This document shows positions 294 to 44,698 of a DNA stretch of 46,259 nucleotides, in pieces. Both the position numbers and the translations under genes were made by a program. The notes under the pieces were generated by a model. It was given only the letters and a program-made list of their open reading frames with translations. It made no database searches and was not told where the DNA came from. The DNA comes from Bacillota bacterium (GTDB taxonomy: Bacteria; Eremiobacterota; SpSt-956; JAKJGF01): contig JAKPQU010000309.1 of the NCBI GenBank assembly GCA_029555925.1, positions 1 to 46,259 on the forward strand, in the 5' to 3' direction. The first letter of the stretch is position 1, and each line of letters opens with the position of its first letter.

Positions 294-3260
294 ATGGAAC
301 TTGCTCATAAATTAGCTGATTTCGCGGCTCAGTTGCCTATAGGTAAAATACTTGGAGAACTTGATTTCTCTCAACCGGGAATTTTAATCGGTGAAACTGC
401 CTGTGGTAAATCTATGGTTACACCTGTACTGGCCCATCTCACAGGAGGGTTCAGAAGAATTATTGTCAGGCAGCCTACAAGACTTGCAAGCTATCTTGCA
501 ATGAAATCTATGGAGGATATATACGGACAGTCAATATCTGTTGGCTGTATAAACAGGGATCAGAAAATTAATCCCGATGCACCGATACTTGAAGTTACCG
601 ATGGGATTCTTATTGATTGGCTCAGAGATAAACAGATATGGTATGATGAACTGGTAATACTTGATGAAATACATGCCACATCGGAGCAGCTTGAAATAGC
701 AATGGGACTTATAAAGAGGCAGGGCCTCCGCCCGTGGTGTCTCAGTGCAACAATTGATCCTAAGGAAATTAAAGCTTATTTTGATGCAGATGTACACTAT
801 GTGTCAGGTATAAATTATCCTATAAGCAAAAAGCAGGTATTCAAAGATCTCGCTGATTTTCTCTATGGAAATAAAAAAGAAAAAGGATATATAAAAGATA
901 AAATAATAGAAAAAGGACACTCATGCCTTGTATTTCTGCCTACCAGATTTGAAACAGAACTGTGGGCAGCAGAAATAGAGGAAGTATACGGTGATGATAT
1001 TATATGCAAATATCTTCATGGAGGTATTAATGTCCAGGAAATGGCACCTTTTGCCCATAAGGAAAATCTGGACAAACCTTTTATACTCTTTTCTACCCCT
1101 GTGGCAGAACAGTCTATTACACTGGATCTCAATGATGTAATAGTTGTAAATGAAAAGATCTTTGTCTGTGAATATATGGGTGTAAAAAGGCAGCAGAGAA
1201 CTCCATTGCCGCCCAATTCACTTATTCAGATGATGGGACGGTGTGGCCGTTACAGAGAAGGACAGGTTTATGTGCTCAGTTCTTACTTCTGGGAAGAAAT
1301 AAATTTCGATGAAATAAGACCTACCCCTGTATCCTATTCTCTTGCCAGCAATACGCCTTATGAACTGGCTATTATTCTTGCAGATAGAGAGGTGAAACTT
1401 CACGATATAGAGCTTATCACACATTTAGACAGAAGAGAATATAACTATGCAGTTAAAATATTGAAAAAGAGAAAAATTATAGATAGAGACGGAAAGCTCA
1501 CAAAAGAAGGGCAGGTTGTAATGAATATTCCTCTGGAATATAATCTGGCTCAGTTCGTAGCTACCGCTCCGGAAAAGATCCTGGATATAGTTATCTTTGC
1601 TGCCAGTTTTGGCACTCATGGACTTTATCATATGGAAAAGTTTTTCCCTGACGAAACACCTTATGAAATAATTATGGAAAGGAAGAAGCTTGCGGTACCG
1701 CAGTCCGATCTCCTGACCAAATATAATATAGCAAGACAGTTTTACGGTCTCTCTGAAGAAGAAATGAATGAGAAATCTCAATTGTTCGGCTATAATCTTC
1801 ATGTCATAACAAATGCTCTGAACGCGGCAAAATCAGTTTATGAACATCTGGAGATGTCGTGCCCTGAAACTCTTCCAAGGTTAAATAGAGAACATATCAG
1901 CTTGTTTCAGGAACATGTGTTTAATATAATGCTCTACAGTCCCATAAAAGTCAGAAAAAGTCACAGCGGAAATAGTTATAGCTGTTATATAGAGCACAAG
2001 AGAGCCTTTACTGACAGCGCTTCTACTGTAGAAGGAGGAATGGAAGAAGTAATATTTTCTTCAAAAACAGAAGTGGAAAACCGCCATGGTGAGTGGTTTA
2101 TAAGGCTTTCAGACAATACCATATGCCCCAGGCAATTCTGGGATTGGTGCTGGCCTGAGGCTACAATAAGAGAATTCCTTCAGAAGATTACAGATATTTT
2201 CCTTGAAAACAGTAAAAGTTTAGCAAAAAGATATCCCATTCTGAATGATTTCCTCTCTAAATCCAGAGAGCTGTCCTTTAAACTTGAAAGGCTATTTAAT
2301 AAATCTCCGGAGAGTTTCAGCAAAGACAGAATTGATTTTCAGGAATGTCTGGAAGATACACTCGGTAATATCTGCATACAGGAAAGGATAAAAAGTTTAA
2401 AAGACCTGGAGAATTATCTAAAAAAAGAACATATTCAGCCTCCTTCTTCTGAAGATTTTATATCCCACGAAGAAATAAAAAGAATAGAAGAAAATTTCCC
2501 CGATGAAATACAGATCAGAGATGTATCATATCCAATTTCTTATGAAAAGGGAGACATATCTGTTGAACTCCCCGGAGAATTAATATTTGAATTGAATGAA
2601 ACAGATGTAAAGGGAATAAATATTTTTGTAAGTATAATAGAAGACAGTAACGGGAAAATTGAGAAGATATATTCCAGAAGTCTTGAAAAAGCCCGTAATG
2701 ACATAAAGTCTGCCATGACCAGAAAAGCCTGGAAGAAAGCCAGAAAAAACATTGCACAGAAAGTCCAGATAAATCAGATACCAAATATATTGACGAAGCT
2801 TCTGGTAAAAAAGCATATAACCGACTTCAATGGTGAACCGGTTTACGGCTGGACAGGACTTGACTATAAAGGTAATAAATGTGCTTTTTCCCTCTTTAAT
2901 TCTTTTGAAGAGGCTGACAGAGAAACGAGAAAAATTTTAGCAGAATATTTTTATCATAAAATAAGAGGGGAGTTAAACAGGATAAAAAAGGAACTTCCCC
3001 AGAGGAATCGTAAGCAAACAAGGAAATATATAAATGGCAAGATAAAAGAACTGGAACAGTTTATCAGAGAAGAACTCAGAAAAGAAGGTTTTAATGTGAA
3101 TTCCAGGAATTCTTTTATGGAAATACAGAAGAAATTGGAGCTAACGCTCTATAAACTGAGAGACGATATCTTTTCAGATTTTTCAGATGAAGTATCTTAT
3201 ATTGAAGAAGATTATGATGAAACACCGCTTGATGGAGATGAACTTGATTTTTTTATTTAA
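294..3260 (+). CDS. DEAH-box (HrpA/HrpB-like) helicase with a long C-terminal extension
   Basis: This is a superfamily 2 ATP-dependent nucleic-acid helicase of the DEAH class, probably acting on RNA. Visible motifs are Walker A GETACGKS at residues 33-40, the DEIH box at 124-127, SAT at 151-153 and a motif VI QMMGRCGR at about 312-319. Motif VI differs from the usual QRxGRxGR at its second position. The helicase core fills roughly residues 15-480. The remaining half is charged and helix-rich, and I do not recognise a domain in it. The ATG at 294 follows a CGGAGA ribosome site at about 278. The next gene starts 24 bases after the stop on the same strand, so the two are probably co-transcribed. 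The helicase class is secure; the substrate is not. Confidence 0.85.
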   Translation: MELAHKLADFAAQLPIGKILGELDFSQPGILIGETACGKSMVTPVLAHLTGGFRRIIVRQPTRLASYLAMKSMEDIYGQSISVGCINRDQKINPDAPILEVTDGILIDWLRDKQIWYDELVILDEIHATSEQLEIAMGLIKRQGLRPWCLSATIDPKEIKAYFDADVHYVSGINYPISKKQVFKDLADFLYGNKKEKGYIKDKIIEKGHSCLVFLPTRFETELWAAEIEEVYGDDIICKYLHGGINVQEMAPFAHKENLDKPFILFSTPVAEQSITLDLNDVIVVNEKIFVCEYMGVKRQQRTPLPPNSLIQMMGRCGRYREGQVYVLSSYFWEEINFDEIRPTPVSYSLASNTPYELAIILADREVKLHDIELITHLDRREYNYAVKILKKRKIIDRDGKLTKEGQVVMNIPLEYNLAQFVATAPEKILDIVIFAASFGTHGLYHMEKFFPDETPYEIIMERKKLAVPQSDLLTKYNIARQFYGLSEEEMNEKSQLFGYNLHVITNALNAAKSVYEHLEMSCPETLPRLNREHISLFQEHVFNIMLYSPIKVRKSHSGNSYSCYIEHKRAFTDSASTVEGGMEEVIFSSKTEVENRHGEWFIRLSDNTICPRQFWDWCWPEATIREFLQKITDIFLENSKSLAKRYPILNDFLSKSRELSFKLERLFNKSPESFSKDRIDFQECLEDTLGNICIQERIKSLKDLENYLKKEHIQPPSSEDFISHEEIKRIEENFPDEIQIRDVSYPISYEKGDISVELPGELIFELNETDVKGINIFVSIIEDSNGKIEKIYSRSLEKARNDIKSAMTRKAWKKARKNIAQKVQINQIPNILTKLLVKKHITDFNGEPVYGWTGLDYKGNKCAFSLFNSFEEADRETRKILAEYFYHKIRGELNRIKKELPQRNRKQTRKYINGKIKELEQFIREELRKEGFNVNSRNSFMEIQKKLELTLYKLRDDIFSDFSDEVSYIEEDYDETPLDGDELDFFI

Positions 3261-3284: not shown

Positions 3285-5534
3285 ATGAAGTGTTATAACT
3301 GTGATGTAGTCAACCTTGAGGGCAGTAAATTCTGCAGTAACTGCGGATGTACCCTTGTTATGGAGTCAGATTATTCTATATTAAATCGCCGTTATAAGAT
3401 TCTGGAGATTATAAGTGCCGGTGGTATGTCTACTGTATTAAAAGCAGAAGATCAGAACCTTGGCAACAGCATATGCGTTATAAAAGAAATGTCAAATTAT
3501 TTCAACAGTCAGAAAGAACGTATATATGCAATTCAGAAATTTAAAGAAGAAGCTTTTATCCTGGCAAAGATGAGATATACCAATATTCCTGTAGTAACAG
3601 ATTATTTTGTGGAAAATGACAAATATTATCTTGTTATGAACTATATATATGGTAAAAACCTCAAACAGGTTCTGCTTGCACATAAAGATAAAAAATTGTC
3701 TGAAGAGGAAGTTAAAAATATAGGCATACAGATCTGCGGAATTCTCGAATATCTTCATAATCTGAATCCTCCCATAATACACAGGGATTTAAAACCAACA
3801 AATTTTATAATGGAAGACGGCACCGGGAAAGTTATACTTATAGATTTTGGCATAGCAAGAAAATTTGAACCGGAAAAAACAGGCACCCTTATAGGTACGC
3901 CGGGATATATGGCTCCTGAGCAGTATATAGGTAAGATAGACCTGAAAAGTGATATCTTCGGTCTTGGAGCCACTCTGCATCATCTTATTACAGGAGAGGA
4001 TCCTGCAGATAGAGAATCCCTTGAATTCTCACTTGTTACAAAATTAAGACCTGAAATATCTCTCCATATGGAAAATGTAATCAGCAAAGCCCTTGAACAG
4101 GATACAGCCAGAAGGTTTCGTTCTGCCACAGAAATGAAACAGGCATTAATGCAAAAAGAATATATAGAAATGCCTGTACGTAGAACTCCTTTTAAACCAT
4201 CGGAAAAATCGCGGGTTCTTCCCAGATATATGGAATTAAGTCAGAAAACAAATATTAAACCTCCTGACATAACTCCGGATGAAGCGCCGAAACGGGCGAG
4301 GAGGATAGGCACCGCTACTGTTGTTCCTAGTTCTGAAGGTATTATAAATGTACAGTTACACTCTTTTCTGGGTAAAGAAACAATCAGAGATATATTGTGT
4401 AAATATACAGGCATAGATATAGGTTCAATGTATATTAAAATAGTTCAGATGAATATAGATGAGAGATATTTTATGTACCCTGCTAAGATAGTTGTAGTTC
4501 CGACGCCTGAAGGCACCATGCACAATGGCCTTATAGTAAATCCCAAAAAACTTGGTACTCTGTTAAAGAAGACCTTCAGTGACCATGATATTAAATCTAC
4601 AAAGGTTATAACATCGGTGCCAAAAAACAGAGGATATTTTTACACGTGCCTTTTAAAAGAAATGCCAGAAACAAAACTTCAGGAACTTCTGCCCCAACTG
4701 GCAAAAGAACATTTTCCTTTTTACAAACAGGGCATTATCCTTGATTATCAGGTAATACACTCCTATCTTCCCGGACAGGAAGGAAAGATGGAGATAATAG
4801 TGGGAGGAGCGGAGAAAGAGGTTGTAGACGGTATAAAACAGACTGTGGAAGAAAGCGGTCTTGGCCTTTCAAGTATTAATTTTCAGCCATTTTTAATTAA
4901 TCAGGCAATAAATCTTCTTATAAGCGAAAATATTAAAAGTAAGTGTGTTGCAGTTATAGATATTGGAGCAGAAAGTACTTCTATAAATATCCTGAAAGAC
5001 GGATCTTTATGGTATACAAGTACGCTGGCTGTAGGAGGCAATGATCTTACCAGAGCTATAGCTGCCGAATTGAAACTGGGTTTTAATGAAGCTGAAATAT
5101 TGAAAAAGAAAAATCTGAAATTGAATCTTCAGAAAGGTGCTACAGAGAGTGAGTTTGTTTTATTCAGCCTTGTGACAGGACTTATAAAGAAAATGCTCAA
5201 TGATATAATAACAGTTATGGAAAATTTTAAGATAAAATATAAAATAGTATCATCTATTCCTGTCATATTCTCAGGAGGCACATCTATAATTAAGAACTTT
5301 GATAAATATGTTGAAAATGAACTCCGAGTCAGATGTCTGAAGTTTAAAATGCCTGTAAGCAAGGTAGATGACGTAAACAAAGAACTTGCCCTGGAACTGG
5401 GGCCGTCACTTATGGTAGGGTTCAGCCTTTCTATGAATAAGATAATAAGAAGTGGAGATCAGCAGGAATTATCAGATGAAAAGCCTCAGGAAAAGAAAAG
5501 CCTCTGGGATATTTTGACGTCGAAATTATTTTAG
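3285..5534 (+). CDS. Zinc-ribbon / Ser-Thr protein kinase / PilM-like fusion protein
   Basis: Three modules lie in one 749-residue chain. Residues 3-20 form a CX2CX10CX2C zinc ribbon. Residues about 33-290 are a Hanks-type kinase: Lys67 in VIKEM, HRDLKPTNF at 166-174, DFG at 187-189 and APE at 210-212. All key residues are present, so it is predicted active. After a proline- and Arg-rich linker, residues about 373-725 resemble PilM/FtsA-fold ATPases of type IV pilus assembly, with GIDIGSMYIKIVQM near 376 and a second phosphate-binding segment VIDIGAESTSINIL at 557-570. PilM normally stands alone and binds PilN at the inner membrane. No PilN, PilO or PilQ gene lies in this window. No membrane segment is seen, so the protein is probably cytosolic. 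It may couple phosphorylation to pilus assembly; that is inference. Confidence 0.85.
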   Translation: MKCYNCDVVNLEGSKFCSNCGCTLVMESDYSILNRRYKILEIISAGGMSTVLKAEDQNLGNSICVIKEMSNYFNSQKERIYAIQKFKEEAFILAKMRYTNIPVVTDYFVENDKYYLVMNYIYGKNLKQVLLAHKDKKLSEEEVKNIGIQICGILEYLHNLNPPIIHRDLKPTNFIMEDGTGKVILIDFGIARKFEPEKTGTLIGTPGYMAPEQYIGKIDLKSDIFGLGATLHHLITGEDPADRESLEFSLVTKLRPEISLHMENVISKALEQDTARRFRSATEMKQALMQKEYIEMPVRRTPFKPSEKSRVLPRYMELSQKTNIKPPDITPDEAPKRARRIGTATVVPSSEGIINVQLHSFLGKETIRDILCKYTGIDIGSMYIKIVQMNIDERYFMYPAKIVVVPTPEGTMHNGLIVNPKKLGTLLKKTFSDHDIKSTKVITSVPKNRGYFYTCLLKEMPETKLQELLPQLAKEHFPFYKQGIILDYQVIHSYLPGQEGKMEIIVGGAEKEVVDGIKQTVEESGLGLSSINFQPFLINQAINLLISENIKSKCVAVIDIGAESTSINILKDGSLWYTSTLAVGGNDLTRAIAAELKLGFNEAEILKKKNLKLNLQKGATESEFVLFSLVTGLIKKMLNDIITVMENFKIKYKIVSSIPVIFSGGTSIIKNFDKYVENELRVRCLKFKMPVSKVDDVNKELALELGPSLMVGFSLSMNKIIRSGDQQELSDEKPQEKKSLWDILTSKLF

Positions 5535-30118: not shown

Positions 30119-33100
30119 CTAAAAATTATCATAGCTATTTGAACTGTAATTTATCGGTTTTGGTTTTAAATAACTTTTATCAGTAGCTCTCATGGTCAAA
30201 TAACCACTGAGTAAAGCAGAAACAACTCTAACAGAACTGAAACGATCTCTTGGTGCTTTAGCAAGCATTTTTAAAACAATTTTCTCTATTTCTTCCGGAA
30301 TAGAAGGAACTATTTTTCTTGGAGGTACCGGCTCTTCTTCTTTGTGTTTTTTCATAATTATCAATGGATTGCCACCGGAAAAAGGAACATTTCCGGTTAG
30401 AAGTTCATAAAAGACAATTCCCAGGGAATAAATATCAGATCTCTCATCTCCCCCGTCTTTAGATAATAATTCACATGGCATATAATGAGGAGAACCGGCA
30501 AAAAATCCTCCCTTGGTCGGTCCTATCTGCTCTACAGATTTAACAGTAACATATTCCATAATTTTTACATTACCATCGGGACTTACCATAAGGTTTTCAG
30601 GTTTTATATCACTGTGTACGACTCTTCTGGAATGTAAATAATTTAATCCTTCACAGACTTTAATTACAAAGTTTATTGCCCATACAACATCCATATTACT
30701 TATTCCGGAAAGTCTTAATAATTCCCTTAATGTCATAGCATCAACAAATTCCATAATCATATAAAGAGAATCTTCATTGCTCAATGCATCATAGACCTTT
30801 ACTATATTTGGATGGTTTAATTCTTTATATTTATCGGCTTCCTGAAAAAATCTATTTATAAAACCTTCGTCATTAAGTAAATGTTCATAAGGTATTTTAA
30901 TGGCAACTATTTCACCGGTATCAGTCTGTGTTGCCTTATAAACCTTTGCCATAGAACCTGAACCAATTTTCTCGGTCACAGTATAATTTCCAAGCAACAT
31001 ATGAGCTTTTGTAGGTACCTGTTTCCTGGTAGAGAGATAAACTCTTTTAAGTATTTCATCCATATCAGGCGCATCAGATGATACCTGTTCTTCAAATGGC
31101 CCCGTCTGATAAATTACATTGTCCGGTACATGTCTTTCATCCTTACCGGGCCTCTGAATGGCTTCAAGTTCATTGGTTGAACGGGTGAATTTCTCAGCAC
31201 CAATTGGTTTGAATGTTCTTTTCGATATTTTACCGCTATCTTCGCCGGAAGAACTCTGCCTGGCTATAAGAATATCCAACCTTTCCTTCGGAAGTTTGTT
31301 TGTCAGTTCACTTTCTATTTCATTGGTTTCTCTTCTTGGTTTTAAAAATCCTTTGGAAAATTCCTTCCTTTTTTCAAGCACCATCTGAGGATTAATATCA
31401 ATCCTCTGTTCCTCCGGACTCAGTTCCCTGGAAGGACGTTTAATTACTTGCTCCTGAGGTAAAATAGTTACCGGTTTTTTCACATCAAGTCTCGGTCTCT
31501 CAGAATATGTTTCTCCGCCACTTAATACAGGTTTTCTCACATCAAGCCTGGGACGTTCTGTATATTCATCCACAGGTTTTCTCACATCAAGCCCGGGACG
31601 TTCTGTATATTCATCCACAGGTTTTCTCACATCAAGCCTGGGTCGCCCTGCATATTCATCCACAGGTTTTCTCACATCAAGCCCGGGACGTTCTGTATAT
31701 TCATCCGCAGGTTTTCTCACATCAAGCCTGGGTCGCCCTGCATATTCATCCACAGGTTTTCTCACATCAAGCCTGCCGGGTCGCCCTGCATATTCATCCG
31801 CAGGTTTTCTCACATCAAGCCCGGGACGTTCTTTATATTCATCCGCAGGTTTTCTCACATCAAGCCTGGGTCGCCCTGCATATTCATCCGCAGGTTTTCT
31901 CATATCCGGGCCTGTATGATCTCCATAATTATTTTCCCGGATACTGTCTGAAGTAAAAGAAAACCCAAGGTCATCTTCTTCTGTGTCCTCAAAATAATCT
32001 TTTTCCTCATCTCTTTCATAAAGCTGCTCCATATCATATGTCCTGTAAGTATCTTTCCTCTGAGCAGGTTGTTTATATTCCTTCCGGGATTCCAGACTAT
32101 ATGCTCCATATTGTTCCTCTTCCGTTTCCCCACCATCATCATAAGCTTCTTCATCGGCTTCATCTTCATCTTCAGCAAAATGGTCATGCGGTTTTAATAA
32201 ATCATCAAAAGAAAATTCGCGTACAGTAGTTACCTTCGGAGATTCTTCCTGACGAGGCTTTTCTGGAAAAAATTTCCGGTCAATTTGCTTATTTAGAAGC
32301 TCTGCTTCACTCTTCTGCAAAGATTCACTATTCAGTAAAGGCTTTTCTTTTTTGCTCTTCTTCTGAAGCTTTATTAAAACTATTATGGTTCCAACAAACA
32401 ATACAATTGCAACAAGAAGAATTATCAACAAAATAGATGACTGACCGGCAAATGGAGGTGCAGGGGTTTCCTCTGCACTTGCAGTAGGAGTTTCCTCAAC
32501 AGGTGAAGGCTCCTCTACAGGAGTAGGCTTAATATATTTGGTCAATGTAATATCAAGTGAAACATTTTCGCCTGCACTGACTTTTATCTTACTGTTGTAT
32601 GTATTATAACCTTCCTGTTTAACGTCCAGAACATGTGTTCCTGTAGATATTTTCTTTATCACGCATGGAATAGAACCTCTTTCCTTACCGTTCAGAAAGA
32701 CAGTAGCTCCTTTGGGGGCACCCTTAATAGAGATAGAACCGGGTAATGGTTTAAGTTCTATCGATAATTTTTTAGTCTTTTCTTCTTCTATCGTAACTTC
32801 CTGCTTAAAAACTGCATAATTCTTTTTCTGTAATTTTACTGTATATTTTCCGGGGTTATGCTCTTTATTGTAAGGTGTCTTACCGGATTTATTTTCATTT
32901 ATATATACAATAGCACCATCAGGAGAAGATTTTATAACAAGTTTTCCTGCTTTCTGACTCTTAACCAGTTCTGCAGTTACAGAAGTATCACCTCCACCTT
33001 CAACCCAGACACTTTGAGAGGAAGGATCATACCCCTCAAGATAAAAGGTGACAGTATGAGAACCTTTTGAAAGGGTTACACCTGTTGGAGCAGTGCCACG

Positions 33101-33532
33101 ATATACTCCGTCAACAGATACAGACGCACCGGCCGGATAAGAACTTATATAGACATAACCTTCGGTTTTCTCAGCAGGCTTATAAGGAACTTCTGTCGGC
33201 TCTTTTGTCGGCCTTGTAGGTTCGGGCAAAGCAGTCAAATATATAGTGCCATAACCATCTAAACCTTTTTCAAGAACAACAGTCGTATAACCTGTTTCAT
33301 ATCCGCTCATAGAGGCACTGAATGAATAGGTTCCGGGAGGATAACCTGTTATAGTGGCAGAAGAATTACCAACATAAGTTCCTGAAAAATATATATCCGC
33401 TCCAGGAGGGCTCGTAGTCACTACAATGACTCCTTCTGCTAAAACCATGTCTGAAATGGAAAATAAAAAGAGAACCATAAACAAACACATATAAATCTTT
33501 GAATACACAGGTAAATATTTCATAATAATCAT
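30119..33532 (-). CDS. PEGA-receptor Ser/Thr kinase-like protein with degenerate DFG
   Basis: An 1137-residue one-span protein. It has a signal segment (about 10-32) and four PEGA domains outside the membrane (about 34-100, 125-190, 196-262, 265-332). A Pro/Glu linker, a transmembrane helix (366-388) and an acidic cytosolic region follow. Eight to nine copies of a 15-residue repeat (RKPADEYAGRPRLDV) come next, and a C-terminal kinase fold occupies about 865-1110. The kinase keeps AIKIP and HSDIKPEN (so HRD is HSD), but the DFG site reads IMEYVTV. The Mg-binding Asp is replaced by Glu, so activity may be weak or absent. Its TAATG start overlaps the gpsA stop by one base. PEGA domains probably bind the wall or other surface partners. 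Confidence 0.88.
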   Translation of the reverse strand: MIIMKYLPVYSKIYMCLFMVLFLFSISDMVLAEGVIVVTTSPPGADIYFSGTYVGNSSATITGYPPGTYSFSASMSGYETGYTTVVLEKGLDGYGTIYLTALPEPTRPTKEPTEVPYKPAEKTEGYVYISSYPAGASVSVDGVYRGTAPTGVTLSKGSHTVTFYLEGYDPSSQSVWVEGGGDTSVTAELVKSQKAGKLVIKSSPDGAIVYINENKSGKTPYNKEHNPGKYTVKLQKKNYAVFKQEVTIEEEKTKKLSIELKPLPGSISIKGAPKGATVFLNGKERGSIPCVIKKISTGTHVLDVKQEGYNTYNSKIKVSAGENVSLDITLTKYIKPTPVEEPSPVEETPTASAEETPAPPFAGQSSILLIILLVAIVLFVGTIIVLIKLQKKSKKEKPLLNSESLQKSEAELLNKQIDRKFFPEKPRQEESPKVTTVREFSFDDLLKPHDHFAEDEDEADEEAYDDGGETEEEQYGAYSLESRKEYKQPAQRKDTYRTYDMEQLYERDEEKDYFEDTEEDDLGFSFTSDSIRENNYGDHTGPDMRKPADEYAGRPRLDVRKPADEYKERPGLDVRKPADEYAGRPGRLDVRKPVDEYAGRPRLDVRKPADEYTERPGLDVRKPVDEYAGRPRLDVRKPVDEYTERPGLDVRKPVDEYTERPRLDVRKPVLSGGETYSERPRLDVKKPVTILPQEQVIKRPSRELSPEEQRIDINPQMVLEKRKEFSKGFLKPRRETNEIESELTNKLPKERLDILIARQSSSGEDSGKISKRTFKPIGAEKFTRSTNELEAIQRPGKDERHVPDNVIYQTGPFEEQVSSDAPDMDEILKRVYLSTRKQVPTKAHMLLGNYTVTEKIGSGSMAKVYKATQTDTGEIVAIKIPYEHLLNDEGFINRFFQEADKYKELNHPNIVKVYDALSNEDSLYMIMEFVDAMTLRELLRLSGISNMDVVWAINFVIKVCEGLNYLHSRRVVHSDIKPENLMVSPDGNVKIMEYVTVKSVEQIGPTKGGFFAGSPHYMPCELLSKDGGDERSDIYSLGIVFYELLTGNVPFSGGNPLIIMKKHKEEEPVPPRKIVPSIPEEIEKIVLKMLAKAPRDRFSSVRVVSALLSGYLTMRATDKSYLKPKPINYSSNSYDNF
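31528..31910 (-). repeat. 45-bp in-frame tandem repeat tract
   Basis: Eight near-identical 45-bp units encode RKP(A/V)DEY(AG/TE/KE)RP(R/G)LDV, plus one degenerate unit with an insertion. One unit has 3 extra bases (RPGRLDV). Unit types AGRPRLDV and TERPGLDV partly alternate, suggesting duplication of a two-unit block. A long antisense open frame here is a by-product. Confidence 0.9.
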
Positions 33533-35855: not shown

Positions 35856-38800
35856 TTACTCACGCAATTCTCGCCTTTTCCTGGCTAAACGGGCTATCTC
35901 GCTGTCAGGATATATATCTTCGCACATTTTATAAAATTTTATAGCTTCTCCAAGTTTATTTTCATCAGAATAGGTTTCGGCAAGTTTGAAAAATATCTGG
36001 GCTTTGGATTTTTTCAGATTGTCCATCTGTTTTACACTGAGGGGAAGTTTTTCCGCCTGTTCCAGATAACCTGTAGCTGTAGCAATTTCATTTTTTTCCA
36101 GGTATTCTTTCCCCAGTTCAAGAAAAATCTGTCCTTTCCTCTTCAGTAAATTTTCCATATTATCAGTATCTGTGCTGAGAGTTTCACATGCAGTAATCAG
36201 TTGTAATGCATCTTCATATTTTTTCTCTATTATGAGAAGCTGTATATTCCCTAAAAAAGCAGGAACAAACTCTTTATTCAGATCGAGTGCCATATCATAA
36301 GCTAAATGTGCTGCCTCAATATCGCCTTTTAAAGAATACATTTTTCCGAGGGTTACATAAATTTCTGGGGATCTGGAATCTACATGAGTTACTTTTTCAT
36401 AATTCTGAATGGCCTTATCTATATCGCCTGCTATCCTGTAGGAATCTGCAAGCATTTTTATTACAGACAGTTCCGGTTCTTTAATATCTTCCAATAACTC
36501 TATCGCTTTCTGATAGTCCTTTTCATGAAATAAAGCTTTACCATATCTGGCAAGAACTTCATCTGACATGTTGGACCTTAATAATTTCTCATAATAAGAA
36601 ACTGCTTTTTTCCAGTCAGACAGAGCAAAATATATATCACCTGTAGATAATAAAACGGAATGGTTGGAAGGATCCATTTTCAATAAATCCTGAAATAGAG
36701 GGAGTGCTTCAGTCAGCCTGTTCTCACCTGCCAGTATATTAGCTTTTTTTAATAAATCATGAAAAATTTTATCCTCTTTTGTTATATTTTCTGTTTCTTT
36801 TTTCGCAGGTTCAGTCATTTTCGCCTCACTTCTTACAAGTTTCAGCGAATAAATTTTTCCGTCTCTTGAACCAAAATAAATACTGTCTCCCAGAAGTGCC
36901 GGAGAAGATCTCAGAGCTCCTCCTGTGTCAAAATGCCAGAGTTTTTCCCCGGTCATGGCATTAACAGCATAAAACCATCCGTCATCAGAACCTGTATAGA
37001 CTATATCCTGATATAATACAGGGGTACATCTTATGCCACCTTTTGTTTCAAATTTCCATAAGATATTTCTCTTTTCCAGATCAATAGCATACAAGTTTTT
37101 ATCCAGAGAGCCTATATAAACAATATCTTCTCCCACACAGACAGAAGAGCGAAAAGGTTTTTCAAATTCCATAGTCCATATATGACGTCCGTCTTCTGCA
37201 TTCAATAAAATAACAATACCATTGTTGAAAAGCCCTTCACAGGCTATATAAATAATATCTTCTGATATTACAGGAGAAGCGTATATTCTGCCACCTGTCT
37301 CAAATTTCCATATTTCTTTACCGGTCTCAACATCAAGCGATATTACAGTTCCTCCTTCTGTTCCGACATAAGCAATACCACCTGAGAGAAAAGGAGCATG
37401 AAAAACAGAAGCACCTACTTTATAGCCCCAGACCTTTGAACCGGACTCTGCATTAATACCAAATATAACCTCGTCATGATGATGACCTCTTTCATATAAA
37501 GAAGCACCTATAAGTAAAATGCCCTGCTCTTGATCTACGGAAGGATTGAAGAATACCGTTTCTTCTCCTCTAAATTCCCACTCTTTTTTACCATTGAAAA
37601 TATTTAAAGAGTAAACCTTTCCATCTCTTGAACCTATATAAATTTTGTTGTTATAAAAAGCGGGAGATGTTGAAACCCAGCTGCCGGTTTTGAAGGTCCA
37701 CTTGATTTTACCATTATCGGCTGATATGGCATAAACATTCTTATCATCAGAACCTACATAAACAGTATCATCTACTGCTATCGGGGAAGAAGAAACCTTA
37801 TCTTCTGTTTGAACATACCAGTTAAGTAATGTTCTGTCCATCTCAATTTCAGCGGATTTGACAGGAGCTTTAACGGAAGGAAGTAATGATTCTTCTGCTC
37901 TGAGTTTTATATGGGAGGTTTCCTTCCTGAAAGATTCTTCACCTTTCATATAAGATTTTGTCATGTCCTTCCTGAAAGGTTCTTCCAATCTAATCTGTGA
38001 AATATCCTTCCTGAAAGATTCTTCCGGTTTAACATAAGATTTTGCCATATCCTTTTTGAAAGGTTCTTCGAAGCTAATCTGTGAAACATCCTTCCTGAAA
38101 GATTCTTCCGGTTTAACATAAGATTTTATATGAGAAACTTCCTGCTTATCTATATCTAAATAGATTGTACCATCGGATTTTTCACCTTTATTCAGTAATT
38201 CCTTTTTCATAGCCGATGCAGAAGGAAAACGTTTTTCCGGTTTTAATCTCAGAGATGTAGCAACAACCGTTTCCAGTTCCTGAGAGATATCGGCTTTTAC
38301 ACTTCTAAGAGGTTTGAAAACAAAAGGAACAGATCTGGCCCCTGTCAGGATATAGTGTATAAGAGCGCCAAGGGCATAAATATCACCTGCTATTCCGGTT
38401 TTACCCTCATACCTTTCAGGCGAAACAAATTCCACCCACTGTGGTAAAGAAATCATATTTCTTCCCTGCGGGGGACGGGAAACAGGGATATCAGTAATTA
38501 ATATATTATTGCTGTTCTTTTTAATTATCACATTTGAAGGTGAGAGATTATAGGTAAACAGAGGGGGATTATAATTATGAAAAAACTCCAGAACATCACA
38601 TAGTTTACAACCCAAATCCACTGCAAAGGATTGAGGCAGATCTCTATAAGGAGAAGAAAGAAAGGAATCTAATAATTCTCCTTCGACAAAATTGAAAACA
38701 ATATAGTAACCGGTATAAAAATGTCCTTTCTCTACAAAATAGTCACTTATTACAGGAAGAGAAGGGAAAGAAATCTTCGATAGAATCTGCATTTCTCTGT

Positions 38801-39077
38801 TAAAACGATCTGTAGCTCTGGCCTGTAATTTCTGATCAGGTAAAATCGTAATTATTTCTTTTATGAATTTAAGGGATTCGTCATGCCTGTCTTCAGCAAT
38901 ATAAAGACTTTCTCCAAGCTCAAAACTGAGAAGGTTAACTATAGAATATTTATTCAGAAGAGTTCCTCTCCCCAGTGTTCCATTCCCTTTCAATTCATCT
39001 GTAATCATATGCCCGCAATCATTACAAAATCTTGCAGATTGCCTGTTTTCCGTTCCACATCTAGGGCATTTTAACAA
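35856..39077 (-). CDS. Zinc-ribbon / pseudokinase / PQQ-propeller / TPR protein
   Basis: A 1073-residue protein from a TTG start with GGAGAGGAGA upstream. Modules: zinc ribbon Cys4, Cys7, Cys18, Cys21; a kinase fold at about 40-295; two and a half copies of a 28-residue SYVKPEESFRKD repeat (about 319-400); a PQQ-type beta-propeller at about 418-745 with blades such as DTVYVGSDDKNVYAISADNG; and TPRs at about 765-1065. The kinase keeps FIKEI, but the HRDLKPSN loop reads TYNLSPSN (Asp to Asn, Lys to Ser) and DFG reads DIP. It is a predicted pseudokinase. No signal or membrane span is seen. It looks like a cytosolic scaffold linking ligand sensing by the propeller to partner kinases. Confidence 0.88.
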   Translation of the reverse strand: MLKCPRCGTENRQSARFCNDCGHMITDELKGNGTLGRGTLLNKYSIVNLLSFELGESLYIAEDRHDESLKFIKEIITILPDQKLQARATDRFNREMQILSKISFPSLPVISDYFVEKGHFYTGYYIVFNFVEGELLDSFLSSPYRDLPQSFAVDLGCKLCDVLEFFHNYNPPLFTYNLSPSNVIIKKNSNNILITDIPVSRPPQGRNMISLPQWVEFVSPERYEGKTGIAGDIYALGALIHYILTGARSVPFVFKPLRSVKADISQELETVVATSLRLKPEKRFPSASAMKKELLNKGEKSDGTIYLDIDKQEVSHIKSYVKPEESFRKDVSQISFEEPFKKDMAKSYVKPEESFRKDISQIRLEEPFRKDMTKSYMKGEESFRKETSHIKLRAEESLLPSVKAPVKSAEIEMDRTLLNWYVQTEDKVSSSPIAVDDTVYVGSDDKNVYAISADNGKIKWTFKTGSWVSTSPAFYNNKIYIGSRDGKVYSLNIFNGKKEWEFRGEETVFFNPSVDQEQGILLIGASLYERGHHHDEVIFGINAESGSKVWGYKVGASVFHAPFLSGGIAYVGTEGGTVISLDVETGKEIWKFETGGRIYASPVISEDIIYIACEGLFNNGIVILLNAEDGRHIWTMEFEKPFRSSVCVGEDIVYIGSLDKNLYAIDLEKRNILWKFETKGGIRCTPVLYQDIVYTGSDDGWFYAVNAMTGEKLWHFDTGGALRSSPALLGDSIYFGSRDGKIYSLKLVRSEAKMTEPAKKETENITKEDKIFHDLLKKANILAGENRLTEALPLFQDLLKMDPSNHSVLLSTGDIYFALSDWKKAVSYYEKLLRSNMSDEVLARYGKALFHEKDYQKAIELLEDIKEPELSVIKMLADSYRIAGDIDKAIQNYEKVTHVDSRSPEIYVTLGKMYSLKGDIEAAHLAYDMALDLNKEFVPAFLGNIQLLIIEKKYEDALQLITACETLSTDTDNMENLLKRKGQIFLELGKEYLEKNEIATATGYLEQAEKLPLSVKQMDNLKKSKAQIFFKLAETYSDENKLGEAIKFYKMCEDIYPDSEIARLARKRRELRE

Positions 39078-39553: not shown

Positions 39554-42500
39554 TCAGGATTTAACAAATTTAGAACTGGTGTATCCGGAAGATGCAAAAG
39601 CATATAAATATCCCCCTTCATCGGTAATAAAGACCATACCATTTGCAAGGGCCGGAGAAGTTCCCGGTCTATACAACAGGTATGCTTTAGACAGATGAAA
39701 ATTTTCAACATCTACAGCACATATAATCCCCTGTGAATAGCCGCAATTGGCTGTAAAAAAAAGGTCTCTACCCGTAAGAGCAATGGATTTTACAGGATAT
39801 TTCACGTCAATTTCTTTTATAACTTTGCCGTTTAAGATGTCAAGACCATAAATCACATGTTTATCACTTCCACAGTAGAGAACATGTTCACCCACACATG
39901 GAAGAGTAGAAAGCTTACCGGTTCCGGCGGAAAATTTCCAGATAATCTGACCTTTATCAACGTCAATAGCTATTATCTGTCCTTTACATGTAACAACAAA
40001 GGCTGTTTCATCATAAATTACAGGAGGAAAATTAATTTTATCACCGCCATTTAAACTCCAGAGGAGATTGCCTGAATCCTCTGAAAGAGCATAAACATTA
40101 CCGCTTATGGCAGTAAATAAAATTTTATCCTTTGAAAGGCATGGAGGAGATAGTAATTTTTCTTTACACTTAAAAGTCCATCTGAAAAATTCCAGATCCT
40201 CATTGAGAGAACAAACCGAGCCGTTTTTTAATGTGCAGTAAACAAAACCTTTTTCCCAGACAGGGCCGGAGGACAGAGAAGCAAGCTCTTTTCTTATATG
40301 ATGAACAGTTGGCCTGTAAGGAAGCCTTAATCTCATGAATCTGCTCGATTCCATAGCAGATTTATTGATAGCATAAATAAATCTTCCTGCTGTTATAAAA
40401 ATCTTATCCCCTGTAACTGCAGGAGGATGTGTTATCGGAGTCGGGCCTGTAATAAATCTTATTCTTTCGGGGAGAGTCACGGTAAATTTTATATAATCTT
40501 TTTCTATATCCAGAACATGAAGTTCACCTCTCTCCGTAGCTATATAAACTTCTTTATTAAATACAACAGGATGGGTAGAAAAGAAATCCGGTCTAAAAAA
40601 ATAGTTTTTATCTGCATGATAAATAGGATCAATATTCTTTTTGATGTGTAAACTTAAAGATATAGAAGAGGCATGTATGGATTGATCCCAGAGGTTGGAC
40701 GATTGAAATTTTGAAGTAGAGGGATATCCTAAAAAGTTATTCCAGCTATAAAATCTGACATAATTATCTATTTCATGTCTTTTCTTTTCTATTTCAAAAG
40801 AGGAATAAGGGAATTTTTTCAGCAGATTATCCAGCAATAAATAAGCAGAATCTATGGACCACATCATACAGTAGGCTCTGGCAAGATTTAATAAAAACGT
40901 TAAATACTGCCTTTCCAAAGGAAGTTTTACATAGCAATCTGCGGCTTTAGCCCATTCTTTCTTTTTCATATAAAGATCACCTGCTTTACCTTTATATATG
41001 AGTAAATCAGGCCTGAGTTTTTCACATATCTTTATCTGTTCCAGAGCTTTATCATAGAGTTTTTCTCCCACAAATATGTCAGCATATATTTCTCTGAAAT
41101 CCCTCCTGAAGGGCAAAAGCTTGAAAGCCTGCTCAAACCCGGCACGTACCTCACTTTTTTTATTCTGTAGCAGTTCATATCTTCCCCATGTGGCGCGGCT
41201 TGCTATGACAGTAAACTGATTTTTTGCCTTTCCTATTAAACCCCTGGCTACTCTAATTTTTACCTCGAGTTCCTCTTTTAATTTACCGTATACCTCCAGT
41301 CCAGCTAATTTATGGGACATAGTTTTAGCAAAATTCTCCAGTGCAGAGTCATCTTCTCCCAGGTTATGATAGGCTATCCCTGCTTCACCGTAAAAAAAGG
41401 GGTTCTTGTTATCCAGAAGAATAGCTTCCTGAAAATATTTCAGAGATTCCAGATAACGTCTCTGACCCATAAGGGCTTTACCAAGTTTAAAGGGATAAAT
41501 AGCTTTATTTTTATTCAATTCTTTAAGATGGCCATACAAAAAGACGGGAAGGTCAAAGGAATTTTCATTAAAATAATTGTCACCGAAAGCATTAAATTCT
41601 TCTTCTATCATGTCATTTATTTCAATAGATTGACCGGTACAGTATAATTCTGTAGCTTTTCTGAATTTTTCCTCCACTTCTCTGGAAGAAGCAACTTTTC
41701 CTATCAAATACTGGGTCTTTGCATAATCCAGGTAAAAAATGGCTTCATTATCTTTATATTTTATAGCATCTCTGAAATACCCCCTTGCATCAAGATATTC
41801 CCTTTTTTCAAAGTAAATTTTACCTGCAAGATGGTAACCGTAGGAAAATTCACTGTCCAGCTTCAGAAGATTATTCAACATATCCAGAGTTTCATCATAT
41901 TTAGTCTCTTTAAAATAAGTAAGGCAAAGGAAAAAATCTTCTATTATTTTAATACTGTCTTCCAGTGATTTTATATTAAATAACGTTATATATCTTTTAC
42001 CTTCCAGAAAATTCCTCAGATTAAGGGGCAAAATCTCACTTCTGTTACCATCAGAGTCGAGTTCGAAACAGTTTCCTTCCTCATCAACTGTTATCCTCTG
42101 TCTGGCTTCTTTATAAAGAGAAAGGCTTTTATCGAATTTACCGTTTCTAAAATAGGCTGAAGCAAGGTAATAAAAATTTACCGATTTTGTCTCTATACCG
42201 GCGAGTTCTTCGAGCTTTGTTATTGCATCCGAAAAATTTTTTATTGCCATATAAATCACAGAAATTTTAAAGAGATAGACGGAGTGTTTCTCATGTGACG
42301 AGAGAAGAAGATTATATTCCTGCAGTGCCTCTTCATATTTACGTAGAGAGAAGTAGGAATCTCCCATGAGCTCATGAAATTCATCCCTGCTTTCCAGAGA
42401 AAGTGCCTGTTTTGCATATTCGATAGCCCTGTTATAATAAAACATACCACCTGAGAGATAACAGCTTTTTGCAAGTAAAGCCAGAGCTTCAATATTTGTC

Positions 42501-44698
42501 TGAGAAAATTTCAATGATTTTTCAAGCTCTTTTATGGCAGATTTATAATCACATTTTTCAAAATAAGTTATTCCGGTTTTAAGACAATCCATAGAAGCTC
42601 TTTCAGGAGAGGTCAGAATATTAAGTCTTTTTTCAGAGCATATATAAATACTTTCGTCTGCAATTACAGGAGGGAAAGAAGGTGTGAAAGACAGATTTAT
42701 TTTTTCGCTTATATTTAATGACATATCAGTCACATACAATGTTCTTCCTGATATATAAAATAGAAATTCACCTGCCATTACAGGAGGGTAAAGCGTGTCC
42801 GGAAGATCGGAACTTTTATATTTAAGAGAGATTTTTCCTGTACTATCGAAACATGCAATGCCTGCCTCTGTAACGACATAGAAGAATTCCCTGTTTATTA
42901 CAGGAGTATAGAGGACTTTAACATTGGAAGAATCAACCAGAGCCGAATCCTTAAACATGGAAATTCCATTTTCTCCTGTTATGAGTATCATATTTTTTAC
43001 TGCTGAAATAAACCTGGAAGGGATGACACAGTGAGAGCCTGTTATATTACCTGTCATATAATCTATTCTATAAACAAAACCTGACCGGGAAAGACAGATA
43101 ATCAAATTATTATTTACCATCATATTATGTACAGGTTTTTCCGTATGAATACCCCATAATTCTTTCCCGTTTTCCATATCAATGGCATAAATATCCATGT
43201 AATCGGAAATAACATAAACATATCCTTCTTTTATTACAGGAAATGCAGTGACAGTTCCGGTTGTTTTAAACTTCCAGAACTCTCTGCCATCTTCCAGGGA
43301 AAGACAGTATATAAAGCTATCATGAGAGGCGAAAACAATCCTGTCTTTAGCGGCAACAGGAACAGACAGAGGGTGTATGTGTTTAAAAATCCATTTCATT
43401 TCACCTGATAGCAGATTAAAAGAAGCTAGTCCCTGTTTATATAAAACTATATAGGCCATACCTTCATATATTATAGGTCTGGAGACAGATTTTTCCGGAA
43501 GAGAAATATATTTAAAAAATACAGGAGAAGGGCATATATTTTCCAGAGTACTTTGATTATTTGTATGTTTCCTGTCTCTGTATTCCCCGCTCCAAGAAGA
43601 AGACATGGCCCTTTTGAGAAGATCATAAAAATCCCTCCACTGTTCTACCTGAATAGGATTTACATCAGGAAAAAGGAAAGGGACTGAATCGACTTCTTCG
43701 AAAGCAGAAAAAATATCTCCCAGATTATAAAGACATTCTGCCGCTCTGAAATGATATCTGGCATTATTGGGATCTTTCTCCAGACATGTTCTGTACTGTT
43801 TTAAAGCCAGCCTCCAGGCCTTTACAGCAAAATATCTTTCTCCTTCCCCGTATTCTGTTTCATCTCCGGAAGATTTTTTTATGTATCTGGCAGAAATTTT
43901 ATCTACTTCTTCAAGCAATTCCAGAGGAGTCTGAAACCTTTCGTCAGGGTTATCACGGAGGGTTCGATGGATTAAAGAAGATAATTCCTCGGAAACTTCA
44001 GGATTTAATGTTTTTAACGGAGGGAAATTGAAGGGATGTTCCGAAGGATCATACTTTGTAAGTAAATAATACATGGTGGCGCCAAAGGAATAAATATCAC
44101 TTCTTGTATCGGATTGCCCCAGATACTGTTCCCTGGGAGCATATCCGGGACTTCCCATTTTAACGGAATCTTCTTTTTCTTCGGGCTTTAAGAATTTGGC
44201 TATCGTAAAATCTACGGGTTTTATATGTCCCCGAGGAGTGATCATTATATTTGAAGGTTTTATGTCTCTTAATACAAGAGGAAAAGGTTTTAAATTATAG
44301 AAATAAGTCAGGATTTCTGCAAGCTGTCTGGCCCAGTTCATCACTATTTCTTCATAAAGAGGTTCTTTACTTTTTTTTATTACATCTTCTAAATTCTGTC
44401 CTTCTATATATTCTACAGCTATGAAATATTTGCTCCCTTCCACAAAAAAATCATAGCCTTTCGGAATAGAAGGGTGATCGAGTTGAGATAATATCCTGTA
44501 TTCTCCCCTGAACAATTCCAGTTCTTTAATCTCGTCTGCTATCGAGCCATCAGAGCTTAAGAGTTCTTTAATTACTACATCTTTTCCCCGATGTACATCA
44601 TATGCCAGGTAAACAATGCACTGGCCGCCTCTTCCAAGGACACGGGTAATCTGGTATGTGTCATGGAGTCTCTGGCCGATTGATAAAGGAGGTTTCAT
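39554..44698 (-). CDS. Giant Ser/Thr kinase with TPR and two PQQ-type propellers
   Basis: At 1714 residues this is the longest gene here. The N-terminal kinase (about 15-275) has Gly-loop LGRGGQCIVY, Lys44, LRDIKPSN at 143-150, DFT at 163-165 and PREQY for APE. The catalytic Lys, Asp, Asn and Mg-binding Asp all remain, so it may be active. A short TPR block (about 285-345) follows, then a propeller-like region (about 385-700) with blades such as GREFWKFKTTGTVTAFPVI. A long TPR superhelix (about 705-1290) and a second propeller (about 1330-1700) complete it. No membrane span is seen. Heptamers abut the ATG and no Shine-Dalgarno is visible. Architecture confidence is high; targets are unknown. 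Confidence 0.9.
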   Translation of the reverse strand: MKPPLSIGQRLHDTYQITRVLGRGGQCIVYLAYDVHRGKDVVIKELLSSDGSIADEIKELELFRGEYRILSQLDHPSIPKGYDFFVEGSKYFIAVEYIEGQNLEDVIKKSKEPLYEEIVMNWARQLAEILTYFYNLKPFPLVLRDIKPSNIMITPRGHIKPVDFTIAKFLKPEEKEDSVKMGSPGYAPREQYLGQSDTRSDIYSFGATMYYLLTKYDPSEHPFNFPPLKTLNPEVSEELSSLIHRTLRDNPDERFQTPLELLEEVDKISARYIKKSSGDETEYGEGERYFAVKAWRLALKQYRTCLEKDPNNARYHFRAAECLYNLGDIFSAFEEVDSVPFLFPDVNPIQVEQWRDFYDLLKRAMSSSWSGEYRDRKHTNNQSTLENICPSPVFFKYISLPEKSVSRPIIYEGMAYIVLYKQGLASFNLLSGEMKWIFKHIHPLSVPVAAKDRIVFASHDSFIYCLSLEDGREFWKFKTTGTVTAFPVIKEGYVYVISDYMDIYAIDMENGKELWGIHTEKPVHNMMVNNNLIICLSRSGFVYRIDYMTGNITGSHCVIPSRFISAVKNMILITGENGISMFKDSALVDSSNVKVLYTPVINREFFYVVTEAGIACFDSTGKISLKYKSSDLPDTLYPPVMAGEFLFYISGRTLYVTDMSLNISEKINLSFTPSFPPVIADESIYICSEKRLNILTSPERASMDCLKTGITYFEKCDYKSAIKELEKSLKFSQTNIEALALLAKSCYLSGGMFYYNRAIEYAKQALSLESRDEFHELMGDSYFSLRKYEEALQEYNLLLSSHEKHSVYLFKISVIYMAIKNFSDAITKLEELAGIETKSVNFYYLASAYFRNGKFDKSLSLYKEARQRITVDEEGNCFELDSDGNRSEILPLNLRNFLEGKRYITLFNIKSLEDSIKIIEDFFLCLTYFKETKYDETLDMLNNLLKLDSEFSYGYHLAGKIYFEKREYLDARGYFRDAIKYKDNEAIFYLDYAKTQYLIGKVASSREVEEKFRKATELYCTGQSIEINDMIEEEFNAFGDNYFNENSFDLPVFLYGHLKELNKNKAIYPFKLGKALMGQRRYLESLKYFQEAILLDNKNPFFYGEAGIAYHNLGEDDSALENFAKTMSHKLAGLEVYGKLKEELEVKIRVARGLIGKAKNQFTVIASRATWGRYELLQNKKSEVRAGFEQAFKLLPFRRDFREIYADIFVGEKLYDKALEQIKICEKLRPDLLIYKGKAGDLYMKKKEWAKAADCYVKLPLERQYLTFLLNLARAYCMMWSIDSAYLLLDNLLKKFPYSSFEIEKKRHEIDNYVRFYSWNNFLGYPSTSKFQSSNLWDQSIHASSISLSLHIKKNIDPIYHADKNYFFRPDFFSTHPVVFNKEVYIATERGELHVLDIEKDYIKFTVTLPERIRFITGPTPITHPPAVTGDKIFITAGRFIYAINKSAMESSRFMRLRLPYRPTVHHIRKELASLSSGPVWEKGFVYCTLKNGSVCSLNEDLEFFRWTFKCKEKLLSPPCLSKDKILFTAISGNVYALSEDSGNLLWSLNGGDKINFPPVIYDETAFVVTCKGQIIAIDVDKGQIIWKFSAGTGKLSTLPCVGEHVLYCGSDKHVIYGLDILNGKVIKEIDVKYPVKSIALTGRDLFFTANCGYSQGIICAVDVENFHLSKAYLLYRPGTSPALANGMVFITDEGGYLYAFASSGYTSSKFVKS

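Follow-up and report, generated by a model that had tools for sequence, protein, structure and literature searches.

PilM is usually a separate protein of the type IV pilus machine, FtsA carries a C-terminal amphipathic membrane-targeting helix, and kinases often carry sensor or repeat domains as fusion partners. In the open-licence literature that we searched, we found no report of a kinase joined to a structural ATPase from a secretion-type machine, and none of a kinase-PilM fusion. A preprint (PMC11870540) describes relatives of PilM, PilN, and PilO that were recruited to the Campylobacterota flagellar motor as FcpMNO, and a study of Thermus PilM (PMC6325625) reports that Lys26 is required for ATP binding.

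The kinase-PilM protein analyzed here combines two known families in a new way and is present as several paralogues in a small lineage. Its gene lies in a 46,259-nt stretch of DNA, referred to below as the window, with the following features.

294..3260, + strand: HrpA/HrpB-related DEAH helicase with a DUF3418 C-terminus (profiles; order kept in locus L001)
3285..5534, + strand: kinase-PilM fusion gene, 749 aa (profile searches and relatives)
3291..3344, + strand: four-Cys zinc ribbon, aa 3-20 (CxxC...CxxC pattern)
3393..4136, + strand: Hanks Ser/Thr kinase domain, aa 37-284, catalytic motifs complete (PF00069, E 7.4e-39)
4137..4403, + strand: linker, aa 285-373 (pLDDT)
4410..5435, + strand: PilM-fold ATPase domain, aa 376-717 (PF11104, E 7e-30; TIGR01175; structure)
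5490..5531, + strand: C-terminal tail EKKSLWDILTSKLF, aa 736-749, candidate membrane-binding helix (conservation)

The fusion gene is flanked by the helicase gene and, on the opposite strand, by an ECF sigma gene; pilN and pilO are not adjacent, and no pil genes were recognized among the ORFs listed for the window. The DEAH helicase neighbor named in the original prediction recurs in the same order in L001 (71% helicase identity), and the two genes are probably operon partners. The helicase scored far under the cut-offs of the HrpB and HrpA profiles. It was found in only 1/149 phylum genomes at E 1e-40, and we therefore give it no weight as a functional partner. The window holds four kinase genes within 46 kb, three of them besides the fusion, all on the minus strand: a 1,137-aa protein with PEGA repeats and a C-terminal Ser/Thr kinase (30119-33532); a 1,073-aa protein with a zinc ribbon, a degenerate kinase in which TYNLSPSN replaces HRDxKxxN, a PQQ-type propeller, and TPRs (35856-39077); and a 1,714-aa kinase with TPRs and two PQQ-type propeller stretches (39554-44698). 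The non-coding DNA at positions 1-190 contains several short motifs around GTGACG.

The kinase had been described as a complete Hanks kinase, and both the PF00069 match and the full set of catalytic motifs bear this out. Among solved kinases, 4eqm/9ymt and StkP are nearest to the window domain. HRD, DFG, and GxxGYxxPEQ are present in 17/17 fusions of the clade defined below; the kinase Lys pattern, as searched by regular expression, was found in 14/17, and Lys67 is invariant in all 11 that were aligned. The fusion thus shares its catalytic domain and complete motifs with PknB/StkP-type Hanks kinases but differs in having a zinc ribbon in front, no PASTA domains, and PilM plus the tail as output; it scored 186.9 bits, from the kinase part only, against the PASTA kinase profile NF033483 (cut-off, 450). 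The zinc ribbon of the window fusion had no Pfam match at E 0.01; its CxxC...CxxC pattern recurs in 16/17 clade fusions, in one of these as CxC. Residues 293-352 of the linker are predicted to be disordered (pLDDT <50), and a short predicted helix at its end (364-373) runs into the PilM domain.

The assignment of the second half to a PilM-type ATPase held up as well, with profile scores above the cut-offs (TIGR01175, 134.5 versus 133; PF11104, 104.5 versus 27) and a PilM fold that spans the full domain in structure comparison; these matches left the proposed fusion standing. Against the FtsA profile TIGR01174 the score of 48.5 bits falls below the cut-off of 175.85; the window protein also differs from FtsA in carrying a kinase. 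Compared with type IV pilus PilM (2ych, 5eou, 3jc8), the fusion shares the fold and the phosphate and adenosine motifs but adds the kinase and the C-terminal tail. As read from its sequence, the window protein is a single chain with complete kinase motifs, a PilM fold, and retained ATP-site residues.

The same architecture is found in relatives. A whole-length search over several sources returned at least 10 further clusters with 96-100% query coverage, 33-96% identity, and both Pfam domains. When a distant paralogue's PilM part served as the query, at least four more rows of this architecture appeared (P0123, P0124, P0125, and P0126), of which P0123 is the query protein itself (100%; G001d below); P0003 corresponds to G001a from residue 26, with a later start, and P0003 and P0123 were left out of the trees as duplicates. 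The window PilM part, used in a region-limited protein search, found at least four proteins, at least three of which are fusions. Among 149 phylum genomes, with up to 7 candidates scored per genome, full-length matches at E 1e-70 occurred only in G001, the metagenome-assembled genome UR.bin48 (loci L001 and L002), which is the sole named genome with good matches to the fusion. Among 58 genomes including G001, PF11104 frames longer than 600 aa numbered four in G001 and one each in G018, G047, G029, and G031; those of G047, G029, and G031 have no kinase domain. An assembly or gene-prediction artefact joining two separate genes has a vanishingly small chance of explaining these data: the junction recurs in the clusters from several sources, and the fusion is found at four G001 sites with zero internal stops. 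The frameshift between the kinase and PilM parts that could have undone the single-polypeptide claim, or a chimera, is ruled out by the relatives with the same junction. A viral origin was also rejected, as 0/7 pattern matches in viral contigs encode a relative.

G001 is spread over many contigs and is possibly incomplete. PF11104 matched it in five places, one stand-alone PilM (382 aa, 200.1 bits) and four kinase fusions: G001a on C181, G001b and G001c in tandem on C189, and G001d on C89. The stand-alone gene sits in a locus ordered pilB-pilT-pilC-prepilin-pilD-pilM-pilN, in which the PilB-like protein is a GspE-type ATPase with an MshEN domain, the PilT-like protein is a second GspE-type ATPase, and the PilC-like T2SSF protein is followed by a prepilin and a prepilin peptidase upstream of PilM. 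The pilN gene directly after pilM encodes the sole PilN found in G001 with the PilN profile, and one secretin was found, at a contig end. The proposed genome search for pilN and a separate pilM returned both in this relative, side by side; G001 therefore has an ordinary pilus served by a PilM of its own, and the fusions are additional. Unlike this pilM, the fusion genes in L001, L002, L042, and the window have no recognized pilN or pilO beside them. Of the tandem pair (L002, 498-5140, + strand), the second member, G001c, no longer has a zinc ribbon, and the ATP-site glycines in its PilM part are gone as well. A Cas6-like gene starts 3 bases after the pair. In a first look, 207 kinase candidates were counted in G001, most of them without scores.

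Stand-alone and fused PilM domains differ in which residues they keep. From 29 stand-alone PilM loci, ORFs were obtained for 21 by a first rule and 24 by a wider one; L036, which a contig end truncates, was dropped from the 24, leaving 23 in a second alignment, and five loci are absent from the alignments because their first motif differs. The main comparison set the 17 clade fusions against 20 stand-alone PilMs drawn from the same phylum set. Forty columns are invariant in the 20 stand-alone proteins; the 13 that lie in the ATP motifs, whose ranges were chosen by the analyst, are retained in a mean of 15.2/17 fusions versus 6.5/17 for the 27 elsewhere (Mann-Whitney p 1.8e-5, with columns and sequences non-independent). 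The picture is the same with 23 stand-alone PilMs. K385, D378, and G664 are kept in 17/17 fusions and the glycines G380, G561, G585, and G665 in 16/17; Lys385 of the window fusion aligns with Thermus PilM Lys26. Conversely, I455 and Y476 are each kept in 1/17 fusions, R579 and R643 in 0/17, and S644 in 3/17, and alignments read by eye place their equivalents among residues common to three solved PilMs from other phyla. Some of the changes are conservative (R643 to K in 11/17, R579 to K in 6/17), and Y479, which is F in 12/17 fusions, is F in two solved PilMs also. Columns specific to the fusions are D392, P399, F687, K737, and K738. By sequence comparison, then, the fusions have lost PilM-specific residues and kept the ATP site.

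These data bear on the proposal that the PilM part works in the pilus platform. The fusion could dock there through PilN or PilB/PilT, joining or replacing PilM, so that its kinase would phosphorylate pilus parts directly. The PilM fold and ATP site are intact, and a type IV pilus is present in G001. The kinase could ride on a PilM copy present in sub-stoichiometric amounts, and Thermus PilM is reported to bind the motor PilF, and to do so without bound ATP (PMC6325625). Nevertheless, the G001 pilus has its own PilM beside the sole PilN found, the fusions have lost residues that stand-alone and solved PilMs share, and no pil gene was recognized next to the fusions in L001, L002, L042, or the window. 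A link between the fusion and the pilus is possible; pilus docking as such is the main rival to the explanation favored below, though we consider it rather unlikely, and these data do not support the original placement in the platform.

The tail is a constant feature of the clade. All 17 fusions end in a basic-then-hydrophobic stretch, e.g., KKSLWDILTSKLF, KKGFWSWFK, or KKGFLGGLFKW, and K737 is present in 17/17, at a position that is a gap in all aligned stand-alone PilMs (20 and 23). The window tail has low pLDDT, with a short helix at 741-744. P0126 carries a three-repeat insertion after PilM, yet its tail remains C-terminal to the insertion; the repeats, at residues about 740-980, are ∼65 residues each and match PF26309. 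Stand-alone PilMs (21, by eye) instead start with a short stretch like MSFLKRLFG, and their mean hydrophobic moment is 0.53 at this N-terminal stretch versus 0.27 at the C-terminus. Fusion tails average 0.51, only modestly above the mean of 0.38 (sd 0.13) obtained for the ends of 144 further ORFs, of which some are fusion genes and 23% reach 0.5, and the tail motif was defined only after the tail had been seen. We infer that the tail attaches to the inner membrane in the manner of the FtsA tail, and base this on its conservation and its likeness to FtsA rather than on the hydrophobic-moment statistic.

The tail also weighs on the idea that PilM acts here as a regulatory domain private to the kinase, which senses ATP/ADP or dimerizes the kinase and serves no envelope machine, being one of many kinase output domains acquired in a kinase-rich genome. 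The many kinase candidates in G001, the three more kinase genes in the window, and the fact that the ATP residues are the conserved part would all fit. The presence of the tail in every clade fusion, even behind an insertion, and the persistence of G001c despite its degenerate ATP site do not, and we regard this explanation as distinctly doubtful.

To follow the origin of the fusion, we compared trees of its two halves. The PilM tree was built from 18 fusions and 21 stand-alone PilMs. It unites 17 of the fusions in a single clade with support of 99/100 and a long stem, within which subfamilies I (P0001 type and G001a), II (G001b), and III (G001d) stand next to G001c. The kinase tree, with 88/89 of hits P0012-P0100 included and G018 left out, recovered groups I, II, and III (99, 99, and 100); it pairs II with III (89), in contrast to the I-II pairing of the PilM tree (99/94). 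The kinase tree holds the 17 fusions together at 51%, with the non-fusion kinase P0022 and G001c unresolved there. The simplest reading is a single fusion event followed by duplication; domain exchange after the fusion is possible. The G018 protein (L038, 2454-4610, + strand) joins a kinase-like domain to PilM. We take it as a separate, probably independent fusion because its kinase-like domain is without HRD and DFG, it falls outside the clade on a long branch, and it has no tail.

One paralogue, G001d, has a fliF paralogue as its neighbor.

L042 8317-10011, − strand: second fliF, outside the flagellar operon and immediately upstream of a kinase-PilM fusion

The fusion gene follows this fliF by 156 bp on the same strand and precedes a TPR gene by 83 bp. 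G001 has flagellar genes besides the second fliF: the regular fliF lies within a flgB-flgC-fliE-fliF-fliG-like run on C309, and the two FliF proteins share 42% over the last 238 columns. FcpM, the PilM homologue of the Campylobacterota flagellar cage, is a PilM-type protein that works outside the pilus and is described together with FcpN and FcpO (PMC11870540); no FcpN/PilN partner was found by the fusions, and the PilN profile matched only the pilus PilN. The adjacency comes from one genome and is at most a lead. A long shot would be that PilM is a general docking head: the four paralogues would carry the kinase to different inner-membrane machines, one of them an MS-ring of the second FliF, and the shared ATP-switched module would wire phospho-signaling onto flagellar and pilus bases.

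The explanation that we favor, with somewhat less than even confidence, is that the protein is a kinase tethered to the membrane, whose actin-fold ATPase, derived from PilM, now serves as a docking module that binds ATP. It is drawn from the conserved architecture, the extra copies in G001, the single fusion clade in the PilM tree, the kept ATP site with lost PilM residues, and the tail, and FcpMNO offers a precedent for PilMNO parts in another machine. Against it speak G001c, with its lost ATP glycines, the conservative nature of some of the residue changes, the unexceptional hydrophobic moment of the tail, and the kinase tree, with its 51% support and different deep order. A single event in this lineage would have joined the kinase to a duplicate copy of PilM, and later duplications of the fusion would have given at least four paralogues, which are retained alongside the ordinary PilM of the pilus. 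With the tail on the inner membrane, as in FtsA, ATP binding would allow the PilM domain to dock onto an inner-membrane platform or to assemble there, the likeliest kind of platform being a type IV pilus or the base of a flagellum, and this would concentrate the kinase on substrates there. We infer the membrane binding, ATP use, partner, and substrates of the fusion. If the tether works as proposed, the fusion would be a direct way to place a Hanks kinase on an envelope machine, and the kept ATP site and the lost PilM residues would amount to a natural experiment on the role of each PilM surface.
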